Of a stretch of 64,000 bases of DNA, positions 29,087 to 37,363 are shown in pieces. The stretch's first letter is position 1; the number at the start of each line of letters is the position of its first letter. The position numbers and the translations under genes were made by a program. The notes beneath the pieces were generated by a model. That model had not been told where the DNA came from, did no database searches, and saw only the letters and a list, made by a program, of their open reading frames with translations. Origin of the DNA: Thermodesulfatator indicus DSM 15286 (GTDB taxonomy: Bacteria > Desulfobacterota > Thermodesulfobacteria > Thermodesulfobacteriales > Thermodesulfatatoraceae); contig NC_015681.1 in assembly GCF_000217795.1 (NCBI RefSeq), positions 1,045,244 to 1,109,243 on the forward strand. The letters run 5' to 3'.

Positions 29087-30105
29087 TCCTCCAGCGGCGG
29101 CAAAGTTGAACGCAGGTTTTCGTAAAAGGCCTTAGGGGCCAATTCTTCAAATACTCCTGTTTGGGCCAGAAATCGCCTCACTTCAACGCAAAGATGACAT
29201 TTGCCGGCAAAGAATTTATTTTCAAGCTCAAGGCCAAACTCATTTTGGGCAAAAATAAAAAGCCCGTAAGGGCCTTCTTCAACGAGAATTTTAACTAAAG
29301 GAAGTTTACGATAATCAAAAGTTTTAACAAAAGCAGCCAGGTCTTCTATTTTTCCCAGGCTTAAGCCGCCACAAAAAAGAGGTATATAATGGCCATAGGG
29401 GTCAAAATGGACATGGCCTGAGAGGAGAATTTCGCGAAGGCAATTCTCACGGGCAAAATGTTCTGGAGGATATTTGCTAGGGGCTAAAAAACCTAGCTCC
29501 ACACCGGCTCGGCCCCCTGGAATTAAGGCATAACCGTCCCAGAATAGACTCCCCGCGGCCTCGTTACCAAAAGTTTTAATCCAGTTATTAAGCGGGATGG
29601 GTTTTTCCCGGCTAAAACGGTCTATCAAGTCAATAAACTGCCACATATAAACGATTACGTTGCCGGCTCCAAGAATCTTTTCTGAAACCCTGATCGCGGT
29701 AAGCGTCCGCTTAAGGGGGATAGTTTCTGCGTGAAAAGGACTAACAGAAATGAGAATGCTTCTTAAGCCAGCATCTTTCAAAAGCTTTAACTTTTCTACA
29801 CCGGTTGCGTAATCGACGCACCACCCGGCATTTGTTTCTACGTATTCTAGGGGAACGCCAAGCTCTGTGCATTTTTCCACGGCAAATAGCAAAAGGTCAA
29901 AATTCAGAAAGGCTTCGCCACCGGCCAGATGAAACCCCTTAAGGTTTTCTGAAGTTTCTTTTAGGCCGCGTAAGAGATTTTCTAAAAAATCGCGAGACAT
30001 CCAGTCTTGCCACTTGGAGCCACAAGCGTAAACACAATGCCTACACCCACTCTGGCAACGATAAGAAAGCATTATGCCGCCAGAATCGAGAGGTTTAAGC
30101 TTCAT
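29083..30105 (-). CDS. Radical SAM protein of unknown function
   Basis: This 340-residue protein has the radical SAM cluster motif Cys17-x3-Cys21-x2-Cys24 (CQSGCRHCVYAC) at its start and HLAGGEAFLN as the SAM-binding GGE. Additional cysteines near the C-terminus (LFCGG, KCHLCVEV) could hold an auxiliary cluster or zinc. The central DPYGHYIPLFCGG resembles radical SAM proteins with SPASM-like tails, but I cannot assign a substrate. It overlaps the nitrilase fusion gene by 11 bases and the HAD gene by 4, so all three form one transcript. Confidence 0.8.
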   Translation of the reverse strand: MKLKPLDSGGIMLSYRCQSGCRHCVYACGSKWQDWMSRDFLENLLRGLKETSENLKGFHLAGGEAFLNFDLLLFAVEKCTELGVPLEYVETNAGWCVDYATGVEKLKLLKDAGLRSILISVSPFHAETIPLKRTLTAIRVSEKILGAGNVIVYMWQFIDLIDRFSREKPIPLNNWIKTFGNEAAGSLFWDGYALIPGGRAGVELGFLAPSKYPPEHFARENCLREILLSGHVHFDPYGHYIPLFCGGLSLGKIEDLAAFVKTFDYRKLPLVKILVEEGPYGLFIFAQNEFGLELENKFFAGKCHLCVEVRRFLAQTGVFEELAPKAFYENLRSTLPPLEE

Positions 30106-31297
30106 TTTTTCTGATTTTTTCTATGATTTTGGTAGTAGATATCTCATGTTCGAAAGGAATACGCAAGACTTTTCCGCCATAACTTTTAACAAAACTGGCC
30201 CCAACTATTTTTTCTTCTGGCCAGTCCGCTCCTTTGACCAGGATGTCTGGTCGCAGGGTCTTGATGAGCTTTTCTGGTGTATCTTCATCAAAGAAAACAA
30301 CGTAGTCAACCACCGAAAGGGCGGCTAAGACCTTAGCCCTGTTTTCCTGAGGATTTATAGGCCGTTCTGGGCCTTTAATTCTTTTAACTGAGGCGTCAGA
30401 ATTAAGGCCTATTACCAGAAAGTCTCCTGCTTCGCGGGCCCTGGCAAGATAGCTAACATGGCCGGCGTGAAGCAAGTCAAAACAACCGTTAGTAAAAACA
30501 AGCTTTTGCCCAAGCGCCTTGCGCCGCCTAACCCGCTGGCAAAGTTCTTCTAGAGGCAGGATTTTTTCGGATAAAAGTGATGGGGAGACCGTGCGTGAAG
30601 TAACAAACAGTTGGCGAGCTTTTTCAAGGGCAGAAAAGTCCAGTTCTAAAAGGGTGATACCGCCAAAAGATTCTGATATTATTTTACCCCAGGGATCAAA
30701 GGCCACGCTTTGGCCACCAAGTTCAATGCCTTCTACCTGGCCCCTGGCGTTTACCCCAAGGCAAAAGACCTGGTTTTCTATAGCGCGGGTGCGCAAAAGG
30801 GTGTGGAAATGGGGCAGCCGTGCTTTAGGCCAGGCTGCTAAGCAAAATAGCACGTGGGCCCCTTCGGCAACAAGCTTTTTGGCTATCTCCGGAAATCTCA
30901 AGTCATAACAGATAAAAACTCCAATAGGCACACCCTTGAGTGTAAAAGGCGGAAGGAGACGGCCTGGTTTAAAGCCCTTTTTCTCGTCAAAGCCCGGAAA
31001 AAGATTTATCTTTTCCGCCACCTTGGTGATGGATTCAGGTGTTATTAGCCAGGCGGCACTTTTGGCTTTGCTGATATCCGCTCCGCCGATAAGTAAAGGG
31101 CTTTTTAACTTTTTCTGGATAGTAGGAAAAGCCTTTTTCAGGAAACTAGCCTCAAGGGCCTTTTCGTATCCGGAAATACCCAACTCTGGGGCTACCACGA
31201 GATCTGCTTCTGGGGCTTTCTCCAGAAGTTCAAGAAGACCGGCCAGAGTTTTTTCCGGTTCAGCGTAAAAAGGGTATTCCAGTATGCCTATTTTCAT
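30095..31297 (-). CDS. Nitrilase-family amidohydrolase fused to HldE-type adenylyltransferase
   Basis: Residues about 1-240 are a carbon-nitrogen hydrolase with the Glu-Lys-Cys triad in APELGISGYE, EKINLFPGFDEK and GVFICYDLRFPE. Residues about 250-400 are the second domain of RfaE/HldE, which adenylates a heptose 1-phosphate. It shows FTNGCFDLLHAGHVSYLARA with the catalytic HxGH, GLNSDASVKRIKGPERPINP and DILVKGADW. Both halves look catalytically intact and the frame is continuous. The HldE kinase half is not in the window. Whether the fused enzymes share a pathway is unknown. Confidence 0.88.
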   Translation of the reverse strand: MKIGILEYPFYAEPEKTLAGLLELLEKAPEADLVVAPELGISGYEKALEASFLKKAFPTIQKKLKSPLLIGGADISKAKSAAWLITPESITKVAEKINLFPGFDEKKGFKPGRLLPPFTLKGVPIGVFICYDLRFPEIAKKLVAEGAHVLFCLAAWPKARLPHFHTLLRTRAIENQVFCLGVNARGQVEGIELGGQSVAFDPWGKIISESFGGITLLELDFSALEKARQLFVTSRTVSPSLLSEKILPLEELCQRVRRRKALGQKLVFTNGCFDLLHAGHVSYLARAREAGDFLVIGLNSDASVKRIKGPERPINPQENRAKVLAALSVVDYVVFFDEDTPEKLIKTLRPDILVKGADWPEEKIVGASFVKSYGGKVLRIPFEHEISTTKIIEKIRKNEA

Positions 31298-32182: not shown

Positions 32183-33679
32183 CTACCTTAAGCGGATGCT
32201 TACATAACGTCTAAATTCTTTATCTCTGACAAGGAAAAGAACTATTCCTGTTTTCTTACTAAGTGCTAAAGCTTCAACAAATTCCTTAAGGTTGTGGACT
32301 CGACGGTGATTTACCTCTTCGATCAGCATACCTGGACGCAAACCAGCGATATCTGCGGGGCTACCAGGGGCTACACCTGTAATAACTACGCCTTCATTTA
32401 CTCCATAACCCAGCTGTTCGGCCAAGGCCGGCGTAAGAGGCTTTACCTCTAGTCCTAACTTTTGCAATAACTCATTTTGACCGGTAAGGATACTAAAACT
32501 TTGAGGTTGGGAACCGATAACAACTTCAAGCTCCTTTTTATGGCCTTTTCTGAATACCACCATCTTGACTTTAGTTCCTGGAGAAGTAAGGGCTACTAAA
32601 GTGCGCAATTCAGCGACATTTTTGACGGGTTTACCATTATATTCGACAATTATGTCTCCGGGTTTAAGCCCTGCCTTATCAGCGGGGGAATTGGGAGCTA
32701 CATCTGTTACCAAAGCCCCTTCAGGCTTTTCTAAGCCAAAGGATTTAGCCAGATCTTCATTGAGATCCTGAATTACCACTCCAAGCCATCCCCTTACCAC
32801 CTTGCCTTTTTCTATCAGCTGTTTAGCAATCACCTTGACCATATTAATGGGAATAGCAAAACCTATCCCCATGTAACCGCCTGACCGAGTAAAAATGGCG
32901 GTATTCATCCCAATAGCTTCACCTCTAAGGTTGACTAATGGTCCTCCAGAATTACCCGGATTAATAGCCGCATCGGTTTGAATAAAGTCTTCATAGTCAG
33001 TGATGCCCATACCTGAACGACCTTTGGCACTAATTACACCTACGGTGACGGTTTGGGTAAGGCCAAAGGGATTACCGATAGCTATAACCCATTCACCAAC
33101 CTGAATCTTATCTGAATCGCCTAGGGGAAGAACTGGCAAGTTATCGGCCTTGATTTTGAGTACCGCTACATCAGAAGCCGGGTCTGTACCTACTATTTTG
33201 GCCTTAAATTCTCGGCCATCGGCAAGCTTTACTGTAACTTTATCCGCATTAGCCACCACGTGATTATTAGTAATGATATATCCGTCTTTGCTTATAATAA
33301 AACCTGAGCCCGCTGCCATTTGCTTGTATTTGTGGGGGAAACGTTCTCTGAAAAATCTTTCAAAAAAGTCTGGACCAAAAAAGTCAAAAGGACTGCCAAA
33401 AGGAAAAGGTTCCATGGCAGGCCCTTGTTTTACTATCACCTTTTCAACTTGAACAAAAACTACAGCTGGCCCAGCTTTTTTGGCTACCTGGGCAAAAGCA
33501 TGTGAAAGTTTTATGGCCAAATTGATGGCTTCTTGATCTTGAACTTTATTCTGAGTGGTAACGGCTTTATTTTCTTCTGTCCTTTTTACTTTGAAAATTT
33601 CCTCAAAAACCGAGGCATTAGCATTAACATTCGCCAAAAAAACGAAAAATAACAAAATAACTCCTATTTTAGACCTCAT
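32183..33679 (-). CDS. degP: Periplasmic serine protease DegP/HtrA
   Basis: This 498-residue exported protease and chaperone degrades or holds misfolded envelope proteins. It has a signal peptide ending near NANAS and a long Gln-loop region with FPFGSPFDFFGPDFF. The trypsin-like triad is His in TNNHVV, Asp in SDVAVLKI and Ser in NPGNSGGPL. Two PDZ domains follow (GALVTDVAPNSPADKAGLKP and GVVITGVAPGSPADIAGLRP). It is the last gene of an operon and sits 15 bases after the HPF::sigma gene. The HtrA architecture is complete. Confidence 0.96.
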   Translation of the reverse strand: MRSKIGVILLFFVFLANVNANASVFEEIFKVKRTEENKAVTTQNKVQDQEAINLAIKLSHAFAQVAKKAGPAVVFVQVEKVIVKQGPAMEPFPFGSPFDFFGPDFFERFFRERFPHKYKQMAAGSGFIISKDGYIITNNHVVANADKVTVKLADGREFKAKIVGTDPASDVAVLKIKADNLPVLPLGDSDKIQVGEWVIAIGNPFGLTQTVTVGVISAKGRSGMGITDYEDFIQTDAAINPGNSGGPLVNLRGEAIGMNTAIFTRSGGYMGIGFAIPINMVKVIAKQLIEKGKVVRGWLGVVIQDLNEDLAKSFGLEKPEGALVTDVAPNSPADKAGLKPGDIIVEYNGKPVKNVAELRTLVALTSPGTKVKMVVFRKGHKKELEVVIGSQPQSFSILTGQNELLQKLGLEVKPLTPALAEQLGYGVNEGVVITGVAPGSPADIAGLRPGMLIEEVNHRRVHNLKEFVEALALSKKTGIVLFLVRDKEFRRYVSIRLR

Positions 33680-33694
33680 TTTAAAACCTCCTTT

Positions 33695-34744
33695 TTATTT
33701 TGCTTCTACTTCCTCTTCTATTTCTTTGGGCTTAGCCCCTAAGGCCTGCCAGCGCTGCCGTATATACTCACGTACTTCTTCTATGTCTTGGCGAACGCTT
33801 TCTTCGTCTCGCCCCTGAAGTTTGGCTATCTCTGCAAAACTTAGACCATCAAGAACATGCCAAACAAAAGCCTGCCGTTTTTCTTCAGGCACTCTTGAAA
33901 GCTCTCGCATGATAAGATTGTTAAGTTCTTCCGCTGAAAGAGCTTCTTCAGGTTCGGTAACCTCTCCCGCTGGTAATACATCTTCCCAACGAAGTCTTTC
34001 TTCTTCAAAAAAGTAGGGACTTTCAGGCATTTCCTTGAGTTTATAACGTACGTCATCTAAAGGCACAGTTTCTTCCACTGGTATGGCCTCGTGTCCTTCT
34101 TCCTTTAGTTTATTTATCTCTCGCTTGATAATTTCGAGGATTTTCTTATGCAAAGCATGGGCCAAATCTCCCATAGCCACTATTTGGTCGTAGTTTTCAT
34201 AAGCCCAAAGGATAGCCTCATCTACCACATCGCCTGGATCTAAATATTCTGGAGGCAACTCCCCGGTTAGCTGATGAAAAAGTATTTCGCGACGAGCAAT
34301 ACGATAAAGGTCTCGCAAAAGAGGACGCAAACGATCCATAAAACGCTCTTTGAGGTCAGCCTGTTTATCTACGGCCAGTTCTGGTAAGGCCTTGGCCATC
34401 TCTTGTATATAACGCTGATGGCGCTTATAAACATGTTCTCCTCTCAATTCAGAAAGATGACGAGCAAGTTCTTTTTCCAAACGCTCTCTAGCTATTTTAA
34501 AAGCGGTTTTCAGGCGTTTGTGTTCTCCCCTTGCCGAAAGAACTCCCTGAGGGACTGAAAGGGTTAATTGCACGAAATAAAACTTTTTCTTTTCAAGCCC
34601 TTCCACCACGATTCTCAAATGCACCAGGTCAGGGTCAAATTTGTTGGTCAACTTTTCGAAACGTTCAATGATTTTGGCTACATAATTTTCAGCAAGCTTT
34701 TTATCTGCTGGGCTAATATCACGATAAATTACATGATGTTGCAT
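33695..34744 (-). CDS. HPF/RaiA ribosome-binding domain fused to a sigma-70-like factor
   Basis: Residues about 1-105 resemble the ribosome hibernation factor HPF/RaiA (YFVQLTLSVPQGVLSARGEH, then a helix FKIARERLEKELARHL). Residues about 125-215 look like sigma region 2 (LYRIARREILF, LDPGDVVDEAILWAYENYD). After an acidic linker, residues about 285-340 match sigma region 4 (RVPEEKRQAFVWHVLDGLSF, EIAKLQGRDEESVRQDIEEV). The protein is highly charged and cytoplasmic. Loss of the -35 helix specificity cannot be judged. The gene lies between a diadenylate cyclase and degP with gaps of 12 and 15 bases. I know of no characterised homologue with this layout. Confidence 0.75.
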   Translation of the reverse strand: MQHHVIYRDISPADKKLAENYVAKIIERFEKLTNKFDPDLVHLRIVVEGLEKKKFYFVQLTLSVPQGVLSARGEHKRLKTAFKIARERLEKELARHLSELRGEHVYKRHQRYIQEMAKALPELAVDKQADLKERFMDRLRPLLRDLYRIARREILFHQLTGELPPEYLDPGDVVDEAILWAYENYDQIVAMGDLAHALHKKILEIIKREINKLKEEGHEAIPVEETVPLDDVRYKLKEMPESPYFFEEERLRWEDVLPAGEVTEPEEALSAEELNNLIMRELSRVPEEKRQAFVWHVLDGLSFAEIAKLQGRDEESVRQDIEEVREYIRQRWQALGAKPKEIEEEVEAK

Positions 34745-34756
34745 AGTTTCCCTCCT

Positions 34757-35707
34757 TTATTTGATTTCTTCTCTTATTGAAAAAGTTTTTTCTTCCGTAG
34801 GTAATGAACCAAAAATCAAAGGCCTTTCTATTTCCATGATTATTTTCCCACCGTAGAAAACCATAACGGTTCCAGTTGATTCACTAACAGTAATGGCTAC
34901 GGCCTTGGTTATAGCGGTAATAGCCGCTGCAGATCTATGCCGGGTCCCAAGTCCTGGAGGAATATCCACCATAACTCCTCCAGCGCGAATAAAAGCACCA
35001 GCCGTTTCAATTATCCCGTCACCCCTTATGACAAAAGCCCCATCAAGGCTGGCAAATTCTTTGATTGTTTCTTCGAGATGGGGATCAAGAATATTTCGTT
35101 CTTTCTCGTCATATCCTTTGAAGGGGTTTAATATAAGCTGTTCACAATATTCCAGGACTTTCTCGCTATCACCTATGATAAAAGTTGTGCCGATAGGCTT
35201 CCCTTCTCTTCCTTCTACGGCTAGGTCAATGGCTATTTCTAGAACGCGTAAGAAAACTTCTGGCCTAACAACTTCGCGTAAATGTTCAAGCTGATTGACT
35301 TCGAAAAACTCAAACTCTGAACCGATATCTATGATGAAAAGAGAATCTAGTACCCCACTTTCGGCAATTCCAGATAGACAGAGGATTATATCTTGAGGGT
35401 GAAAAATACCTTTAGACACACCTACCAGGACGGCTATTTTCATCTGTCCTAGGCGGGTCAATTTGATATGAGGCACTCTTATAAAAGATACTTTTTCTGG
35501 TAAAGGAAAATTTAATTTATCACGACTTACCAAAACAAGTTGAGCATTTTCCAGTCTTTCCACATAACTTTTGAGTTCTTCTTCATTATGAAAAACATCG
35601 GCGTAAACCATAATGGCTTGCAAGGGAAGACAGTTGGAAAGCTCCACAGCATAATCTAGAAGTTTATCTGTTAGACATTTTTTTAAGTCTAATTTCAGTA
35701 AGTTCAT
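34757..35707 (-). CDS. Diadenylate cyclase (DisA_N/DAC domain)
   Basis: It probably makes the second messenger cyclic di-AMP. The C-terminal half has the DAC active site: DGAFVIRGDGIIETAGAF for the DGA motif and GLGTRHRSAAAITAITKA for the RHR motif. Residues 1-150 form a soluble alpha/beta domain (ILCLSGIAESGVLDSLFIID). It resembles the pyruvate-kinase C-terminal-like domain of archaeal DacZ more than the membrane CdaA type. The start is the ATG at 35707 behind AGGAGG; the longer frame to 35755 lies in yprB. It overlaps yprB by 44 bases. Confidence 0.85.
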   Translation of the reverse strand: MNLLKLDLKKCLTDKLLDYAVELSNCLPLQAIMVYADVFHNEEELKSYVERLENAQLVLVSRDKLNFPLPEKVSFIRVPHIKLTRLGQMKIAVLVGVSKGIFHPQDIILCLSGIAESGVLDSLFIIDIGSEFEFFEVNQLEHLREVVRPEVFLRVLEIAIDLAVEGREGKPIGTTFIIGDSEKVLEYCEQLILNPFKGYDEKERNILDPHLEETIKEFASLDGAFVIRGDGIIETAGAFIRAGGVMVDIPPGLGTRHRSAAAITAITKAVAITVSESTGTVMVFYGGKIIMEIERPLIFGSLPTEEKTFSIREEIK

Positions 35708-36500
35708 ACGGCCTCCTGATAACCCCTTCCGAGGAGACCGTAAGAGCGGGAACATGCCGTGTCAAGACAAGATGTTTTAGGCCTTGATAGGTAATTTCGG
35801 CTAGATATAAAAGATTTATTACGTCTTCTCGATTATAAAGAATAAGCTTTTCTAAAGCTTTTACATCTTTTTGGTGTTGCCACTTGCGCCAGAGCCTTAC
35901 GGCTTCAAAGCCGTCAAGGCCGTCTATCTCGCTGGGACGGGCTAAGCCAAAGACTTTTTCAATACGTTTAAGGCCTCCTTTAAAGCCCAACCGTTTCAGC
36001 AAAGGGCAAAGATCTAAATGGACTTTTGGCATGGGGAGCCAGGGATAGTGATTTCTTAAGAAAGGAAAATCAAAAAAAGAGCCTCCAAAAGTAACTACCA
36101 GTTCGGCATCAGCTAAAATTTGAAGGCCTTCTTCTAAATTTTCTCCAGCAATAAAGGCTTTATATTCTTCTCCATCAAAAAGGCCTAGTACAGTCACTTG
36201 GTTTAGACCCTTCTTTAAACCATCTGTTTCAATATCAAGAAAAAGGGCTCGATTTTTGAATTTTTGATACAAACGCCAGTGATGGCGCTTGGGCAAAATC
36301 TCAGCTAAAGAGGCGAGGTTTTCTTTAAAAATAATGACTTGACTAAGTTTTTTCTTCCAAAAAGAAAGCCTCCCAGGGGATATCCCTGGAAGGCTTTCTG
36401 CTTCCAAAAGCTTCCACCAATGGGTAACACCTTCTTGCCAGAGGAAAAACTCAGTCCTTTCGCTAACCCCTGGCAAAAATAAAAAAGTACGATATAGCAT
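35664..36500 (-). CDS. yprB: YprB-like ribonuclease H-fold exonuclease
   Basis: This 278-residue protein has a DEDD-type 3'-5' exonuclease fold. The metal ligands are in ALFLDIETDG, VVTFGGSFFDFPFLR, VHLDLCPLLKRLGFKGGLKR and ILYNREDVINLLYL. YprB-family proteins have a predicted nucleic-acid processing role but no settled function. The start codon overlaps the ppiC stop by one base (TAATG). The 3' end overlaps the diadenylate cyclase start, so the pair is coupled. Confidence 0.82.
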   Translation of the reverse strand: MLYRTFLFLPGVSERTEFFLWQEGVTHWWKLLEAESLPGISPGRLSFWKKKLSQVIIFKENLASLAEILPKRHHWRLYQKFKNRALFLDIETDGLKKGLNQVTVLGLFDGEEYKAFIAGENLEEGLQILADAELVVTFGGSFFDFPFLRNHYPWLPMPKVHLDLCPLLKRLGFKGGLKRIEKVFGLARPSEIDGLDGFEAVRLWRKWQHQKDVKALEKLILYNREDVINLLYLAEITYQGLKHLVLTRHVPALTVSSEGVIRRPYELTEIRLKKMSNR

Positions 36501-37363
36501 TAAAGCTTATCGGTATAAATTTTTACCTTGTATTTTGCTTTAAGTTCTTTTAAAGCCTGCTGTAAGGCTTCTTTTTGCTTTTGATTAATGTATTCTTCTT
36601 TTACTTTCGCTTTGACTTCTTCAAATGGCTTTTCCTTAGGAACTTTCTTTTCTTCGACTTGAATAATATGAAAACCAAAAGGCGTACGAATTGGCTTACT
36701 AATTTCTCCAGGTTTTAAAGAAAAAGCAGCATCTTCAAACTCTTTGATCATTTGGCCTCTACTAAAAAAGCCAAGCTCTCCCCCTTTGTCTTTAGTGCCT
36801 GGATCATCGGAGTACTCTTTGGCCAGTTTGGCAAAGTCTTCACCCTTAAGAAGTCTTTCGCGGATTTTTTGGGCTTTCTCGTAAGCCTTTTTAACTTCCT
36901 CTTTAGAAGCATTTTGGGGAACTTGAATTAAAATGTGCCTAGCCCTTACTTCTTCGGGTTCCTGAAATTTAGCTTTGTTTTTTTCGTAATAACTTTTAAG
37001 CTCTTTATCGCTAACCTGTTTGACTTTGGCTAGGACTTTCTTTTCAAGATAGGCTTGGGCAAGAATTTGTTTGGTAGCCTCTTCTATTTGACGCTTGACC
37101 TCTGGGTCTTTTTCGAGGCCAGCATCTTTGGCTCCTAGGGCCAAAACTGAAATTTCCGCCCAGCGTTCTACCAAAGCTTTTTTGAGCTCAGGCTGATGAG
37201 CAAGAATCATCTTGATTTGAGGAGGAGCAGATTCAAGCTGAGCCTCAAATTCTTTTTTGGTTAACTTATAAGGACCCACTTTAGCTAAGATTTCATCCTT
37301 GGCGTGTACCGTAGAGGCAAATCCTATTAGTAATGCCAAAACCACCGAAATTAAAAATTTCAT
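36500..37363 (-). CDS. ppiC: Periplasmic peptidyl-prolyl isomerase (parvulin/SurA-like)
   Basis: This is a 287-residue exported foldase. It has a signal peptide ending VHAKD and an N-terminal helical SurA-like chaperone region. One parvulin domain follows ([41 protein letters not shown]). It helps outer-membrane protein folding. It is the first gene of a minus-strand operon that continues with yprB, the diadenylate cyclase, the HPF::sigma gene and degP, and shares a 162-base divergent gap with rex. No Rex-like box was seen in that gap. Confidence 0.92.

Follow-up and report, generated by a model that had tools for sequence, protein, structure and literature searches.

The stretch of DNA analysed here, called the window throughout, comprises 64,000 nucleotides of the Thermodesulfatator indicus DSM 15286 genome (NC_015681.1, positions 1,045,244 to 1,109,243), the assembly of which consists of one 2.32-Mb contig. 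On its minus strand lies a gene that we call HPF-sigma, since its 349-residue product joins a domain of the ribosome hibernation factor family HPF/RaiA to a C-terminal half built like an extracytoplasmic function (ECF) sigma factor. Read from 34744 to 33695, it is the sole long open reading frame (ORF) at the locus and has a single in-frame ATG start, while the plus strand over the same interval is riddled with stops. An initial annotation, made from the sequence alone, had given the exact coordinates of the continuous frame but missed its strand. A chance ORF or a join created by a frameshift is excluded: the frame is conserved, and comparison with the closest named relative, T. autotrophicus, whose homologue is 95% identical, yields a dN/dS of about 0.02 (with dS near saturation), which indicates purifying selection.

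The N-terminal domain is detected by the Pfam model Ribosomal_S30AE at residues 21-99 with a marginal score of 24.2 bits against a cutoff of 23.7, and the NCBIfam yfiA equivalog model gives 23.0, under its cutoff of 40.9. Because the Pfam score is marginal, the fold was tested separately. When the domain was modelled alone with AlphaFold2 (AF2), all of the top 26 Foldseek matches in the PDB were HPF/YfiA proteins, 4hei being the best, and a profile of the family matches HPFs over positions 1-104. Modelling thus shows an HPF/RaiA fold for residues 1-100 of the fusion, as the initial annotation had suggested. The half is basic (+5 to +12), and the T. indicus protein has basic residues at six of the seven YfiA positions examined, which we take to face the 16S rRNA; those retained align with YfiA R22, K25, K28, K79, R82 and K86. 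In other members these positions are less well kept and variable. Docking on the ribosome is a putative function of this half.

What the domain is fused to sets the protein apart from YfiA and from long HPF, as the sigma-like half replaces the S30AE_C dimerisation domain. Other HPFs also bear fused or C-terminal modules, such as the C-terminal domain through which long HPF forms 100S dimers or the CBS module of the archaeal HibA (PMC13324472), and with the basic positions retained in the T. indicus protein this would fit a hibernation factor in which the sigma-derived half is a structural module that dimerises ribosomes, or serves to anchor chaperones or RNA polymerase on those that are parked, and leaves gene choice unaffected. 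We consider this rather unlikely: the same genome already encodes, as a separate protein, a canonical long HPF complete with dimerisation domain, the basic positions are less well kept elsewhere in the family, and the appended part is specifically a pair of sigma domains, correctly ordered and joined by a conserved linker.

The sigma-like character of the C-terminal half is apparent from several models. Pfam Sigma70_r4_2 matches residues 277-321 with 37.7 bits (cutoff 25.7), the NCBIfam sigma70-ECF model TIGR02937 scores above its cutoff over residues 142-331 as well as for the homologue from Shinella, and RefSeq labels several members of the family sigma-70 family sigma factors. The Pfam region-2 model (PF04542, Sigma70_r2) failed to detect the protein in a scan of its own genome, so that the assignment of a sigma2 domain rests on fold and superfamily evidence. 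Residues 127-336, approximately, model as an ECF-type sigma2 plus sigma4; Foldseek aligns the full-length model to ECF sigma factors over about 200 columns, the best matches being two-domain ECFs, and the sigma4 part superposes closely on region 4 of RpoE. Matched against the PDB, the family profile retrieves ECFs and PhyR at about positions 170-336. The presence of sigma2 and sigma4 domains in that order is thus shown at the level of models, and with the helix-turn-helix in sigma4 it resembles the group 4 ECFs RpoE and SigH. In contrast to these, the fusion has an Asp in place of the sigma2.2 Gln, an acidic recognition helix, a long acidic linker and an HPF domain at its N-terminus.

The extent of these departures was assessed by comparing 25 members of the family with ECF sigmas from the same phylum, using RpoE contact residues that we assume to be the relevant ones. 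In region 2.2, the Gln of the DxxQE motif, which presumably corresponds to the core-binding Gln406 of sigma70, is kept by all 14 ECFs and replaced by Asp in all 25 members of the family. The sigma4 recognition helix has a mean net charge of -2.7 in the family versus +2.4 in the ECFs (-4 in the T. indicus protein), and over the entire sigma half the net charge per 100 aa is -9.2 versus -0.26, the two ranges not overlapping. As the members compared are related, the charge statistics are not independent and their P values are nominal; the robust points in this sequence comparison are the invariable replacement of the Gln and the absence of overlap in charge. The initial annotation had proposed to map the residues that contact the -10 and -35 elements; those that sigma factors use for core polymerase binding and for -35 recognition are replaced across the family.

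A precedent for such a protein is PhyR, the response regulator that acts as a sigma mimic in the general stress response of Alphaproteobacteria. In it a correct ECF structure is accompanied by degenerate promoter and core contacts (reviewed in PMC8103513). The HPF-sigma family is alike in joining a sigma-like half with degenerate promoter and core contacts to a sensory domain, but has an HPF where PhyR has a receiver domain. PhyR-type models are the best or a near-best match for three members (L005, L006 and P0004), although the Pfam PhyR_sigma-like model is over its cutoff in L005 only and not in the T. indicus protein. At the Thr position of the recognition helix, Glu is found in both PhyR proteins compared and in 12 of the 25 family members. 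A receiver domain, which PhyR has at its C-terminus, did not appear in the Pfam scan of the T. indicus protein, and the neighbourhoods that were annotated or scanned showed neither nepR nor ecfG.

Judged by these residues, the sigma half has probably kept the fold and lost the function of a sigma factor. This bears directly on the initial annotation, which had the ribosome-bound N-terminal half free or hold a working sigma factor and so couple ribosome state to promoter choice. That a true ECF sigma with an N-terminal HPF regulator, released or held upon docking to idle ribosomes, directs polymerase to quality-control promoters including that of its own operon is compatible with the TIGR02937 scores of the T. 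indicus and Shinella proteins, with functional ECFs as best structural matches and the close superposition on RpoE region 4, with the RefSeq names, and with the lack of any other ECF in the genome. It is nevertheless unlikely, in view of the core-binding Gln replaced in every member, the acidity of the recognition helix and of the whole sigma half, and the failure of Sigma70_r2 to find the protein. A link from the ribosome to transcription is still a reasonable guess, whereas the case for a working sigma half that chooses promoters is weakened, since core polymerase and -35 contact residues are replaced family-wide, the half is strongly acidic and PhyR is the best or near-best match for several members. 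We therefore prefer to see in the protein a sigma mimic linked to the ribosome rather than a promoter selector gated by it.

In the window the gene is part of a tight minus-strand operon that the initial annotation had missed, in the order PpiC-type isomerase, RNase_H_2-family nuclease, DacZ-like cyclase, HPF-sigma and DegP (Table 1). In T. autotrophicus the stop codon of the fusion overlaps the DegP start, and DegP synteny is kept in L031, L036 and L062. The DacZ-like cyclase is absent from this position in L036 and L062. In T. indicus the cyclase, which carries a DacZ_P sensor domain, lies directly upstream, suggesting that the operon also includes c-di-AMP signalling. Elsewhere the order is PpiC, RNase_H_2, HPF-sigma, DegP and FtsH (genome G248), or an M50 protease is found among the neighbours (G077). 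Plasmid-borne members lie near genes for Hsp20, FtsH, Clp ATPases (ClpK in the locus of heat resistance, LHR), HdeD, ClpP, thioredoxin and KefB, or alternatively for GroEL/GroES and DnaK. With the exception of G056, nearly every readable neighbourhood is a proteostasis locus. In alphaproteobacterial islands a gene annotated as NADH dehydrogenase ubiquinone Fe-S protein 4 also lies near HPF-sigma and HdeD (L057, 10633-11193; L060, 12633-13193; L072, 11140-11721). Further along the same strand of the window, a single ORF at 30095-31297 pairs a carbon-nitrogen hydrolase (residues 9-209) with a cytidylyltransferase-like domain (268-393), which looks like the half of RfaE that is a heptose-phosphate adenylyltransferase; such a combination is unusual.

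Table 1. Features of the HPF-sigma gene and its operon; positions refer to the window.
Feature	Position	Strand	Evidence
HPF-sigma fusion gene, 349 aa	33695..34744	-	only long ORF, single ATG, full-length conservation in relatives
HPF/RaiA domain, residues 1-100	34445..34744	-	PF02482 over cutoff; AF2 pLDDT 86; Foldseek best 4hei, E 1.2e-6
Sigma2-like helical domain, residues 127-218, VVDE replacing the ECF DxxQE motif	34091..34366	-	TIGR02937; Foldseek to ECF sigmas
Acidic linker, residues 219-270, conserved family motif around (F/W)YQPDE..L..ED(V/L)	33935..34090	-	family alignment
Sigma4-like helix-turn-helix domain, residues 271-336, acidic recognition helix	33737..33934	-	PF08281 E 1.6e-9; TM 0.87 to 2h27 (RpoE region 4); charge
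DegP/HtrA periplasmic protease, next downstream, 15-bp gap	32183..33679	-	TIGR02037 E 2.9e-159
DacZ-like diadenylate cyclase, next upstream, 12-bp gap	34757..35755	-	PF02457 E 1.2e-21; PF21755
RNase_H_2-family nuclease, same operon	35664..36500	-	PF13482 E 5.1e-32
PpiC-type peptidyl-prolyl isomerase, same operon	36500..37363	-	PF13616 E 1e-35

A search across the Desulfobacterota, also proposed in the initial annotation, uncovered a family conserved over its full length. The fused frame is found in nine genomes of the phylum, T. indicus included, and in one further member of the tLST type; in a set of 395 Desulfobacterota genomes, full-length fusions are encoded by Thermodesulfatator, by a second genus of its order (61% identity), by G056, and by G001, G041 and G077 (27-32%). 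Homologues in proteobacterial plasmid islands, of which the initial annotation took no account, range from 25 to 33% identity; those that tblastn retrieved from plasmids align over the full length with 25-28% identity and come from Shinella, Paracoccus, Burkholderia, Cupriavidus, Sphingomonas and others. When such plasmid relatives served as queries, nearly 300 plasmid records were found, mostly from Klebsiella, Enterobacter, Acinetobacter and Escherichia. A Candidatus Heimdallarchaeota label is attached to L036 (JAMOVR010000056.1), which bears a Thermodesulfatator-type PpiC-RNaseH-HPFsigma-DegP cluster and is most likely a mis-binned bacterial contig. One scan of viral contigs gave a single relative (L061) and three others gave none, while a scan of genome contigs yielded close relatives only. 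A phage origin was rejected, as the phage records searched gave no match, and so was a defence-system reading, as PADLOC returned no match. In the family alignment A2, conservation was nowhere sufficient for a pattern scan.

The enterobacterial homologue is the hypothetical gene situated between hdeD-GI and trx-GI (gene order according to PMC8290217), i.e., orf11 of the LHR/tLST, also known as TLPQC orf10. It aligns with the Desulfobacterota proteins over 330 columns (hhalign probability 99.1, E 7e-19) and is thus a full-length homologue with both HPF and sigma halves, but it is more diverged, scores under the Pfam and NCBIfam cutoffs and is borne on mobile islands. Of 5,426 complete E. coli genomes, 152 carry the LHR/tLST. 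In a review, a sigma-24-like gene is named as the hallmark of an island in Methylobacillus (PMC8290217). An orf11-type member also occurs in the Desulfobacterota genome G372 (L067, G372:C51, 8028-9170), within an apparent tLST-like island as read from the sequence of its neighbours, outside the mainly beta- and gamma-proteobacterial range described for tLST. Deletion of orf11 from LHR-bearing E. coli is not reported to have lowered resistance to heat or chlorine (PMC8407380); any role there would therefore be subtle, redundant or exerted under other conditions. This result and the sub-threshold scores of orf11 could also be read as signs that the gene rides along in stress islands, decaying or accessory and with no important role, but such a view is very improbable given the strong purifying selection between the Thermodesulfatator species, the retention of the gene across phyla and its overlap with the DegP start in T. 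autotrophicus.

Taken together, the two folds, the conserved fusion family, its neighbourhoods and the replaced sigma contact residues are shown by sequence and modelling. The explanation that we tentatively prefer, with a probability of roughly 0.4, is that the family combines a ribosome-binding HPF/RaiA domain with a sigma mimic, is encoded with protein-quality-control genes and tunes chaperones and proteases when translation is lost. The basic HPF half would dock in the mRNA/tRNA channel of the 30S subunit of idle or damaged ribosomes, and the acidic sigma-like half, having lost promoter reading, would act like PhyR by binding a protein that usually binds a sigma factor. Candidates for this partner are RNA polymerase and an anti-sigma factor, the latter as yet unrecognised, with RpoH as a further one. 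The acidic half may be held closed on the basic HPF half until binding to the ribosome opens the protein, or the reverse may apply; in either case, loss of translation would tune the expression of chaperones and proteases.

Several observations weigh against this proposal. The full-length AF2 model is of low confidence (pLDDT 60.6), the T. indicus copy still exceeds the general ECF cutoff, and the charge statistics and the orf11 deletion are subject to the reservations given above. Moreover, no candidate gene for an anti-sigma partner is conserved beside the fusion. The sigma factors of the genome are RpoD, an RpoD-like protein, an RpoH-like protein and one of the FliA type; no other ECF was found in it, leaving a PhyR-like decoy no obvious anti-sigma target, which makes a strict PhyR scheme problematic.

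Precedents exist singly for HPF fusions, such as the archaeal HPF-CBS protein HibA (PMC13324472), for ECFs extended at the N-terminus and for sigma mimics. HibA differs from the fusion in carrying its CBS module at the N-terminus, in belonging to Archaea and in lacking a sigma-like part. In agreement with the initial annotation, which knew of no characterised protein of this layout, no paper describing the HPF-sigma combination was found in the open-access literature searched, where a subscription paper could be missed. A possible, though doubtful, extension is that these proteins form a new class of stress regulators, in which the HPF domain senses vacant ribosomes and the sigma mimic attached to it redirects RNA polymerase to proteostasis genes. 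Such a regulator would operate in thermophilic Desulfobacterota and, among Enterobacteriaceae, in their mobile heat-resistance islands. The homology also provides a domain-level hypothesis for a gene whose function was not known before, orf11 of the intensively studied LHR/tLST. If ribosome binding does couple to transcription, a single protein would connect hibernating ribosomes with chaperone and protease control, stress systems that are usually studied separately, and cells may use the state of their ribosomes for steering stress genes.
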